Source: Alphaproteobacteria bacterium
Lineage (GTDB): Bacteria; Pseudomonadota; Alphaproteobacteria; UBA2966
Reading direction: 5' to 3'
Assembly (NCBI GenBank): GCA_021296255.1
Contig: JAGWAU010000001.1
Span: 1-64,000, forward strand
Length of the DNA: 64,000 bases
The notes under the pieces are model-generated. The model was not told the origin of the DNA. It saw nothing but the letters and a program-made list of their open reading frames with translations, and searched no databases. How positions within the stretch are numbered: the first letter of the stretch is position 1; each line of letters opens with the position of its first letter. Both the position numbers and the translations under genes were made by a program. Below are positions 53,401-56,728 of the stretch, one piece after another.

Positions 53401-53608
53401 GAGACACCATCATTCAATCGGCTGACCCCGTGTACCGCCTCGCTCCATCAGCGACAAGAGCACGCGTGAGCACACTTCGAAAACCGAGACCGGCGGTTTT
53501 GTCGCACACGATCATGCTGCCCCTCCCGCCGCGCGGATGGTTGTGCACTCTGTCGCCGCAAATCGTGCCGTGGTAGTTTGCGGCGCGATCTGGCAACCGT
53601 GGTGGGCA

Positions 53609-54610
53609 ATGAGCGGTGGTCCCCTTGATGTCGTAGGCATCGGAAACGCGATTGTCGACGTGTTATCGCACGCCGATGATGAATTCCTGGTTCGCGAAGG
53701 CCTCGTCAAGGGCAGCATGGCCTTGATCGACACTGTCCGCGCGGAAGCCCTGTATGACTCCATGGGGCCGGCCATCGAAGTATCGGGCGGCTCGGCCGCG
53801 AACACCGTCGCCGGTCTGGCAGGCTTTGGAGGACGGGCCGGCTTCGTGGGTCGAGTCCGTGACGATCAGCTGGGCGCCGTGTTCGCCCACGATTTGCGAG
53901 CGCTCGGTGTCGAGTTCGACGTTGCCCCGGCGACGGAAGGACCGCCTACCGGACGCTGCCTGATCCTGGTCACGCCCGACGCCCAGAGAACCCTGAACAC
54001 GTACCTGGGCGCGGGCGCCGCCCTCGGTCCCGACGACGTCGACGAGGCCCAGGTCGCATGCGCGCAGATCACGTATTTGGAAGGGTATCTCTGGGACCCC
54101 CCTGCCGCAAAGGAGGCGTTTCGAAAGGCGTCGGCGGTCGCGCACGCGTCCGGGCGGAAGATCGCGTTTTCGTTGTCCGACTCTTTTTGCGTGGGTCGAT
54201 GGCGAGAGGAGTTCGTTCACTTGGCGGAGCACGAAATCGACGTGCTCTTCGCCAACGAGGATGAGATCAGGTCCCTCTACCAAGCGAACTCCTTCGACGA
54301 CGCCCTGCGGCACGTCCGGGGACATTGCGAGACCGCGGCGCTGACGCGCTCGGAAAAGGGATCGGTCATCGTCTCCGGCGATGAGATCCATGTCATCGAC
54401 CCGGAGCCCGTCGCGTCCGTCGTCGACACGACCGGGGCCGGAGACCTCTACGCGGCCGGTTTCCTGTTCGGGCTGGCGCGAGGTTTGGATCTGTTCACCT
54501 GCGGTCGGCTCGGTTCGATCGCCGCTAGTGAAGTGATCAGCCACATGGGCGCGCGCCCCGAGATCTCGCTTGCCGAGTTGGCCAAGCGCAAGTTGGGCGA
54601 GATCGCGTGA
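53609..54610 (+). CDS. PfkB family kinase, adenosine kinase-like
   Basis: A 333-residue ribokinase-fold enzyme resembling the adenosine kinase group: DVVGIGNAIVDVLSHADDEFL, GGSAANTVAGLAGFG, and the C-terminal DTTGAGDLYAAGFLFGL with the catalytic Asp of GAGD. It should phosphorylate a nucleoside or sugar, probably adenosine or inosine. ATG 53609 is chosen over the longer frame from 53537, as it matches family length. It is followed at 31 nt by the membrane cyclase; the shared adenine theme is notable but may be chance. Confidence 0.87.
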   Translation: MSGGPLDVVGIGNAIVDVLSHADDEFLVREGLVKGSMALIDTVRAEALYDSMGPAIEVSGGSAANTVAGLAGFGGRAGFVGRVRDDQLGAVFAHDLRALGVEFDVAPATEGPPTGRCLILVTPDAQRTLNTYLGAGAALGPDDVDEAQVACAQITYLEGYLWDPPAAKEAFRKASAVAHASGRKIAFSLSDSFCVGRWREEFVHLAEHEIDVLFANEDEIRSLYQANSFDDALRHVRGHCETAALTRSEKGSVIVSGDEIHVIDPEPVASVVDTTGAGDLYAAGFLFGLARGLDLFTCGRLGSIAASEVISHMGARPEISLAELAKRKLGEIA

Positions 54611-54641: not shown

Positions 54642-56351
54642 GTGACCACGAAGTTCGACCCGATCAGCCGCCTGCGCCTTTATTCGGGCGTGGTGCTTTA
54701 CGTCTACGCAGCGATGCACTTGCTCAATCACGCGCTCGGCCTGATCTCTCTGGAGGCCATGGAATGGGGCCGAGAGCCGTTTCTGGCCGTCTGGAGGAAT
54801 CCCGCGGGTACGGCGTTGCTGATCGGGTCAGTGGCTATTCACGCCGGGCTGTCTCTCTATTCCCTTTATCGCCGTCGTACGCTGCGTATGCCGTTCCACG
54901 AAGCGGCACAGATGGTCAGCGGCCTGATTCTGCCGCCGCTCCTTGCGGGGCACGTAATCGGAAACCGCCTGCTGCACGAAAAATTCGGGCTGGAAGACAC
55001 GTACACCTGGGTATTGCTCAATCTGTGGGTCCTCGACCCCAAGCTCGGCGCCCAACAGGCCCTGGCGTTGATTGTCGCCTGGACCCACGGGACCCTGGGT
55101 CTTCGGCGTTACCTCATGCTCAAGCCCTGGTTTGCGACGTGGCGGCCGGTGCTGTTCGCGTTCTCCATCCTCGTACCCATTCTCTCGCTGCTCGGATTCG
55201 CTCAGGGCGGCCGCGAGGTCATTCTCCGCATGCAGAGTCTAATGTGGTTCGCCGACGTGCGAGAGGCCATCAACTGGCCCGGCGATGACGCCCTGGCGTG
55301 GTATCTCAGCACCCTGGACGCCGCGTTGACGGGAATGGCCGTGCTTCTGGTACTGGTGCTGGCCGCCCGAGGCGGACGCGCCCTCCGGCACCGCCGCATG
55401 GGACTGATCTCGGTCTCCTATCCGGGAGGTCGACGGATCTCCATCACTCAGGGAACATCGGTCCTGGAGGCGAGTCGATCAGCCGGAATCCCGCACGCGT
55501 CCGTGTGCGGCGGCCGTGGTCGCTGCTCCACCTGCCGGATCAGCGTCGAGGTTTCCGACGGCGAGTTGCCACCCGCAGGCGACGACGAACTCCGGGTTCT
55601 GCATCGAGTCGGGGCGCCGGAGGGGGTGCGTCTGGCCTGCCAGCTACGGCCGCCGGTCGATATCCAAGTCACGCCGTTGCTGCCGCCAACGGCAACAACC
55701 AAGGACGCCTTCAGCCGTGCCAGGTATCTGGCCGGCGACGAACGCGAGATCGCCGTGCTGTTCGCCGATCTGCGCGCGTTCACCAAATTCAGCGATGGGC
55801 GGTTGCCCTATGACGTGGTGTTCATTCTCAACCAGTATTTCCACCTCATGGGCAAGGCGATCGATGAAGCCGGGGGGCGTGTCGACAAGTACATCGGCGA
55901 CGGAGTCATGGCCTTGTTCGGTATCGAGAGCGGACCCCAACAAGGCTGCAGGGAAGCGTTGGCGGCGGCTCAGGCCATGGCACGCGCCCTGAACACGCTC
56001 AACGAAACATTGCGGCATCAGATCACGGAACCGCTCCGCATGGGGCTCGGCATCCACGTCGGAACGGCCATCGTCGGCGAGATGGGATACGGCGAGATCA
56101 TGTCGCTCACGGCTATGGGAGATACCGTCAACACCGCGAGCCGCCTCGAAGCCGCGACCAAGGAGTTCCGGTGCAAGCTCCTCACGAGTCACGACGTCGC
56201 CGAGCGCGCCGGCGCCGATCTCTCCCGATTTCCCAGCCGGGATATCGAGGTGCGCGGACGCACGGAGCCGGTCGCCGTCTACCTGATATCGGAGGGCTTG
56301 GAGACCATGCTGGAAGACAGCGAAGCCGCGCGATCCGGCGCGGCGACGTAA
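54642..56351 (+). CDS. Membrane-bound adenylate/guanylate cyclase with [2Fe-2S] ferredoxin domain
   Basis: A 569-residue protein in three parts. Residues 1-245 hold about six membrane helices with several His in or near them (His26, His30, His67, His104, His149), recalling cytochrome-b-type subunits. A plant-type ferredoxin domain follows, with Cys289, Cys295, Cys298 (CGGRGRCSTC) and Cys333. The class III cyclase domain (370-550) has both metal Asp residues (Asp376 in FADLRAF, Asp420 in YIGDG), Lys416 and Asp494 for base recognition (the Lys/Asp pair indicates ATP), Asn497 and Arg501. All catalytic residues are present, so it should make cAMP, perhaps in response to redox state. GTG 54642 is the start; it lies 31 nt after the kinase. 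Confidence 0.88.
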   Translation: MTTKFDPISRLRLYSGVVLYVYAAMHLLNHALGLISLEAMEWGREPFLAVWRNPAGTALLIGSVAIHAGLSLYSLYRRRTLRMPFHEAAQMVSGLILPPLLAGHVIGNRLLHEKFGLEDTYTWVLLNLWVLDPKLGAQQALALIVAWTHGTLGLRRYLMLKPWFATWRPVLFAFSILVPILSLLGFAQGGREVILRMQSLMWFADVREAINWPGDDALAWYLSTLDAALTGMAVLLVLVLAARGGRALRHRRMGLISVSYPGGRRISITQGTSVLEASRSAGIPHASVCGGRGRCSTCRISVEVSDGELPPAGDDELRVLHRVGAPEGVRLACQLRPPVDIQVTPLLPPTATTKDAFSRARYLAGDEREIAVLFADLRAFTKFSDGRLPYDVVFILNQYFHLMGKAIDEAGGRVDKYIGDGVMALFGIESGPQQGCREALAAAQAMARALNTLNETLRHQITEPLRMGLGIHVGTAIVGEMGYGEIMSLTAMGDTVNTASRLEAATKEFRCKLLTSHDVAERAGADLSRFPSRDIEVRGRTEPVAVYLISEGLETMLEDSEAARSGAAT

Positions 56352-56362
56352 CCGGACCGGCG

Positions 56363-56728
56363 CTATTCCTGACGCTTGATCATCGGGCCGGTATCGGCGC
56401 CCCCAAACACATGAATGTGGAAGTGGGGAACCTCCTGATGGCCGTGTGCCCCGATATTGGAAAGGATGCGATAGCCGTCTTTCGCGACATCGGTTTTCTT
56501 CGCGACTTCACCGACGGCCCGGAACAATCCGGCGATCTCGGCATCCGAGGCGTTTGCCGCAAAATCATCGGCGTCGACGTACCGGCCTTTGGGAATGACC
56601 AACACATGCACCGGCCGCTGGGGACTGATGTCGTTGAACGCCAGCGCATGATCGTCCTCGTACACCTTGTCGCATGGAATCTCGCCGCGCAGGATCTTGG
56701 CAAAAATGTTCTCGTCGTCGTAGGCCAT
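56363..56728 (-). CDS. HIT family nucleotide-binding protein (HinT-like)
   Basis: A 121-residue purine nucleoside phosphoramidase of the histidine-triad family. The triad HFHIHVFG follows the family end block HGHQEVPHFHIH, and the N-terminal block NIFAKILRGEIPCDKVYEDD is also characteristic. It hydrolyses AMP-NH2-type bonds in the cytoplasm. It lies downstream of hisE at about 70 nt on the same strand, the usual position in this group of bacteria. Confidence 0.93.
   Translation of the reverse strand: MAYDDENIFAKILRGEIPCDKVYEDDHALAFNDISPQRPVHVLVIPKGRYVDADDFAANASDAEIAGLFRAVGEVAKKTDVAKDGYRILSNIGAHGHQEVPHFHIHVFGGADTGPMIKRQE

Follow-up and report, generated by a model that had tools for sequence, protein, structure and literature searches.

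Ferredoxin-linked 6TM adenylate cyclases were delineated in 2016 as an isolated "cluster 1" of 30 class IIIb cyclases from α- and β-proteobacteria (PMC4821796). In these proteins, among them Q132R4 of Rhodopseudomonas palustris, a ferredoxin lies between the 6TM anchor and the catalytic domain, and the anchor carries four precisely spaced intramembrane histidines. The 6TM region is similar to the cytochrome b of succinate dehydrogenase/fumarate reductase (SQR/QFR), with two hemes predicted, and other cyclases have 6TM anchors without heme (PMC4821796). CyaC of S. meliloti (SMc01818) was already purified and biochemically characterized in 2019. According to PMC10463352 (citing Wissig et al, 2019), its 6TM domain binds two heme B, and ubiquinone oxidizes or reduces these hemes, affecting activity. 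The scheme given there depicts CyaC as activated after oxidation by quinones and includes a [2Fe-2S] cluster. Active-site mutants at K410, T484, N491 and R495 are also described in that article.

Here, we analyzed a gene in a 64,000-nucleotide stretch of alphaproteobacterial DNA (the window), whose product had been described in an earlier note as a redox-wired membrane adenylate cyclase. The novelty implied by that description does not stand, as the family was described in 2016 (PMC4821796) and characterized biochemically in 2019 (via PMC10463352). The window protein is a further member of the published CyaC family, and its architecture is not new. It places the published route from respiratory redox state to cAMP in another alphaproteobacterial lineage. 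The coordinates of the gene, its domains, its neighbors and related loci are collected in Table 1.

Table 1. Location of the cyclase gene, its domains and predicted heme ligands, the adjoining genes, and stand-alone sensor loci in other genomes.
Feature	Position	Strand	Basis
CyaC-type adenylate cyclase gene, 569 aa, stop included	54642..56351	+	GTG start; intact ORF; full-length relatives at 37–81% identity
Six-helix membrane domain, residues 1–252, folded like the diheme cytochrome b subunits of SQR/QFR	54642..55397	+	Hydropathy; AlphaFold2 pLDDT 93.2; VIA-align Z 14.4 vs 1QLB chain C
Distal heme b, predicted axial ligand H26 (helix 1)	54717..54719	+	Invariant; pairing inferred from FrdC
Proximal heme b, predicted axial ligand H67 (helix 2)	54840..54842	+	Invariant; pairing inferred from FrdC
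Distal heme b, predicted axial ligand H104 (helix 3)	54951..54953	+	Invariant; pairing inferred from FrdC
Proximal heme b, predicted axial ligand H149 (helix 4)	55086..55088	+	Invariant; pairing inferred from FrdC
[2Fe-2S] ferredoxin domain, about residues 255–345	55404..55676	+	PF00111 E 2e-7; NqrF ferredoxin domain E 1.5e-7; four Cys invariant
Catalytic domain of the class IIIb cyclase, approximately residues 361–550	55722..56291	+	PF00211 E 6.7e-18; alignments to 1WC0, 2W01, 3R5G
Adenosine-kinase-like gene of the PfkB family, 31 bp upstream in the same orientation	53594..54610	+	Pfam E 6e-48
Convergent HinT-like gene of the HIT family, 11 bp downstream; housekeeping synteny	56363..56728	-	Pfam E 5e-24
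Stand-alone sensor + MscS pairs	L089:3920-7008 (+); L090:1767-5095 (-); L110:2-2600 (-); L112:1-2467 (+)

Gene and domain architecture

The ORF is a genuine and intact member of the CyaC family, and the fusion of a six-helix membrane domain, a four-Cys ferredoxin and a complete class III cyclase that the earlier note had read from it is real. The same-genus MAG relative from UBA2966 (L005/L036), which is 81% identical over 563 residues, begins at the identical start codon. The frame stays open to a TTG codon 24 codons upstream; this alternative start was rejected, as it falls within the final part of pfkB and the UBA2966 relative does not share it. The whole architecture recurs in about 20 of 61 related genomes, which excludes a chance arrangement. 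A full-length model keeps the three domains at a mean pLDDT of 87.9.

The middle part of the protein scored above the Pfam cut-off for Fer2 (residues 264–337, E 2e-7), and its nearest solved relative is the ferredoxin domain of NqrF. The cluster motif, C289-x5-C295-x2-C298-x34-C333, retains all four cysteines in 19/19 relatives, confirming the four-Cys ferredoxin domain. The C-terminal part matched Guanylate_cyc, likewise above the cut-off (residues 368–549, E 6.7e-18), with the class III cyclase domains 2W01, 1WC0 and 3R5G as nearest solved relatives; the genome encodes four Guanylate_cyc proteins in all.

A residue table of the catalytic domain bore out the presence of the catalytic residues, comprising the metal-binding D376 and D420 and the transition-state residues N497 and R501. 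The base-selecting residues had been misread as a Lys/Asp pair for ATP. Alignment with Spirulina CyaC (1WC0/1WC1) identifies the class IIIb pair K416/T490, with K416 matching the Lys of "vdKFvGD" and T490 the Thr of "dfTAiG", and the substrate expected is still ATP. Spirulina CyaC shares this class IIIb active site but has other N-terminal domains and regulation, so that the two proteins have no more in common than their name and catalytic domain.

The catalytic Lys is replaced in some family members, by Gln in L046, L048, L049 and L097 and by Ala, Ser or Gly in L051, L052 and L054, all of which retain the sensor His and Cys residues. Judged from these substitutions, altered substrate preference or lost activity is likely in these proteins. 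One genome (G047) encodes two such full-length members, L051 on contig C3 and L054 on contig C41, both without the catalytic Lys.

We compared the window protein with S. meliloti CyaC through published features. The two are alike in the 6TM anchor of diheme-B type, the [2Fe-2S] domain, the class IIIb cyclase and the K-T-N-R spacing. Specifically, K416/T490/N497/R501 correspond to K410/T484/N491/R495 of CyaC at a constant offset of six, a comparison of published residue numbers rather than a sequence alignment, and the relatives L100, L102, L103 and L106 carry the exact CyaC numbers. Cluster 1 likewise shares the mid-position ferredoxin, the four intramembrane His and the resemblance to SQR/QFR cytochrome b (PMC4821796).

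Membrane domain and predicted hemes

The family-averaged hydropathy profile has six peaks, near residues 26, 66, 97, 137–149, 178 and 233. The description of this domain as His-rich was fair, since four transmembrane histidines (H26, H67, H104 and H149) are kept without exception, in 19/19 rows and throughout a set of 41 rows in which some members are only about 30% identical. In the AlphaFold2 model of the domain (mean pLDDT 93.2), computed from an alignment of the window and fetched-genome sequences with the single plasmid-record row left out, one of these histidines lies in each of the long helices 7–34, 54–77, 85–115 and 133–158.

The six best VIA-align matches of this model were all membrane subunits of quinol:fumarate reductase or succinate dehydrogenase (Z 14.4 to 11.1), led by Wolinella succinogenes FrdC (1QLB_C; Z 14.4, 4.0 Å over 201 residues). 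Below these came another succinate dehydrogenase subunit (Z 7.3), followed by the heme proteins cytochrome b561 and Dcytb. Helical bundles can give Z scores of this size by chance; that the top rows are consistently SQR/QFR subunits, with a gap in Z beneath them, makes a chance match unlikely. Profile-based searches did not recover this relationship: the Pfam search of the protein gave no match in residues 1–250, Sdh_cyt staying below its gathering score (9.7 vs 25.8 bits, E 1.2; best family member E 0.02), and a profile of the domain matched none of the PDB sequences. Foldseek returned no significant match for the model, ranking subunit C of Desulfovibrio gigas fumarate reductase second (probability 0.85). 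The modeled membrane domain is thus SQR/QFR-like in its predicted fold and is not classed as such a subunit by Sdh_cyt.

FrdC resembles the window protein in this fold and in carrying heme-ligand histidines in four helices; it differs in being a respiratory subunit without a cyclase, in having five helices as opposed to six, and in sharing 13% identity. Lancaster (1999) reportedly placed the FrdC heme ligands in helices I and IV for the distal heme and in helices II and V for the proximal heme, FrdC having no helix III. Compared by helix order, this arrangement suggests the pairs H26/H104 for the distal and H67/H149 for the proximal heme.

Signaling model, neighboring genes and alternatives

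We consider it very probable that the window protein is a CyaC-type redox-regulated adenylate cyclase, in which a two-b-heme anchor connects the quinone pool with a [2Fe-2S] domain and a class IIIb cAMP output. In this model, the six-helix, SQR/QFR-anchor-like domain would hold a distal (H26/H104) and a proximal (H67/H149) b-type heme and exchange electrons with the quinone pool. Its redox state would be relayed to a presumably cytoplasmic [2Fe-2S] ferredoxin domain and on to the cyclase, either directly or via conformational change, and the class IIIb dimer would convert ATP to cAMP. By analogy with S. meliloti CyaC, oxidized quinone would lead to more cAMP. The path from membrane heme or quinone through [2Fe-2S] to cAMP proposed in the earlier note agrees with what PMC10463352 presents for S. 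meliloti CyaC; the Lys/Asp pair does not hold, and neither does the argument from the neighboring genes. Every sequence feature of CyaC-type ferredoxin-linked 6TM class IIIb cyclases is present, namely six helices, four transmembrane His, a mid-position ferredoxin, Lys/Thr with K-T-N-R spacing and an SQR/QFR-like fold, and the putative redox-to-cAMP logic is supported by homology to the S. meliloti enzyme.

Three cyclic-nucleotide-binding proteins are encoded in the same genome, none of them near the cyclase gene, and a cAMP receptor may lie among them. They include an FNR-like Crp regulator with an N-terminal Cys (L057) and a small CNBD protein adjoining an ABC transporter (L055); no receptor resembling Clr, of the CyaC-CycR-Clr signaling complex of S. 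meliloti, was identified among the three. The remaining protein, encoded on contig C32 (L056:1408-2838, minus strand), is K+-channel-like with a C-terminal cyclic-nucleotide-binding domain and is a candidate cAMP effector.

Alternatively, the [2Fe-2S] domain could be the main sensor, responding to iron-sulfur status, oxidative stress or soluble electron carriers while the membrane hemes merely supply or drain electrons. The cluster cysteines and their surrounding loop are indeed invariant, even in members without the catalytic Lys, but the transmembrane histidines are equally invariant, and the redox response of CyaC is placed at heme B in PMC10463352. We therefore regard a primary [2Fe-2S] sensor as unlikely and retain the CyaC-type, heme-based route as the preferred reading, with the cluster probably acting as a relay.

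The cyclase gene lies within a stretch of housekeeping genes, nth–EI24–pfkB–cyclase–HIT–hisE–hisF–hisA–hisH–hisB–hslV–hslU, in which the his, nth and hsl names were assigned by reading the sequences. S. meliloti cyaC adjoins LysR and TetR (CycR) genes, in contrast to the pfkB and HIT genes here, and no CycR-type TetR gene was found next to the window cyclase. The identification of the two neighbors as adenosine-kinase-like PfkB and HIT genes was correct, and pfkB and the cyclase gene are probably co-transcribed. A linked adenine-nucleotide circuit of the three genes is unsupported, as pfkB and HIT are direct neighbors in loci without a cyclase at this site (L062, L063, L072, L073, L077 and L080; approximately 5–175 bp between match ends). 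Their presence therefore provides no evidence of a cAMP circuit, the neighbors show no shared pathway, and the cyclase gene was either gained here or lost elsewhere.

Among 38 loci examined, pfkB adjoins the cyclase gene directly upstream in 12 further loci of several families, so this position is old. In a tree built on the sensor part, the sequences with an adjacent pfkB grouped together more than under label shuffling, without forming one supported clade. Both observations would suit a small adenine-nucleotide turnover unit of cyclase, adenosine kinase and HIT protein, fed by redox-controlled cAMP, an added claim that is compatible with the CyaC-type reading. However, no pfkB was found next to the cyclase in 26/38 loci or in Rhizobium etli p42e, and some genomes have the pfkB–HIT pair with no cyclase at that site, which makes a turnover unit quite unlikely.

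Since b-type hemes can bind gases in other sensors, the predicted hemes could in principle act as a ligand sensor for O2, NO or CO rather than as a quinone-linked redox center, with gas binding altering cyclase activity. The four invariant histidines instead imply two six-coordinate hemes without a free axial site, as in the quinone-linked anchors of SQR/QFR, and CyaC responds to ubiquinone according to PMC10463352, leaving gas sensing very improbable. A membrane domain that serves just as an anchor or as a lipid receptor, with a constitutive or lipid-regulated cyclase, has precedent in the heme-free 6TM anchors of other cyclases (PMC4821796) but is extremely improbable in view of the invariant intramembrane His, the diheme cytochrome b fold and the separate ferredoxin-linked cluster delineated in the same study.

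Distribution of the sensor part

Using residues 1–344 as the query (E ≤ 1e-20), we found the sensor part in 112 of 385 sampled Alphaproteobacteria, nearly always within frames of 550–700 residues, as compared with the 30 sequences of cluster 1 in PMC4821796. As the module is this common, what is learned from S. meliloti CyaC should hold for many other species. The short ORFs L091 and L092 were considered as sensor-only forms and rejected; they appear to be frameshifted, with matches to the cyclase half further along.

Among plasmid records, 165 had at least 80% of the query covered in one place, the best being from Rhizobium. WP_011427907.1 of R. etli CFN 42 has the same architecture, with approximately 46% identity over 95% of the protein and all key residues kept. 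It differs in its location on plasmid p42e, where its neighbors encode an FkbM methyltransferase and a glycosyltransferase.

A rare stand-alone form, in which a 6TM protein with the four His and the [2Fe-2S] domain lacks a cyclase and is followed by an MscS-family channel gene, was observed in four alphaproteobacterial genomes (Table 1). A short literature search returned no description of this sensor/MscS pair and we know of none, so the form is apparently undescribed. This small branch hints that other outputs may be under the control of the module. In a broader proposal, which is speculative and rather doubtful, the module would be a plug-in quinone sensor of general use with more than one output (cAMP here, an MscS-type channel in other Alphaproteobacteria), and the pfkB–cyclase–HIT arrangement of this lineage might also reflect selection as a redox-cAMP-adenosine unit instead of inherited synteny. 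The L089 (386 aa) and L090 (374 aa) proteins end after the ferredoxin with all four His and Cys kept, and their genes overlap the following channel gene by 4 bp. The sensors of L110 and L112 are 31–49% identical to L089 or L090.
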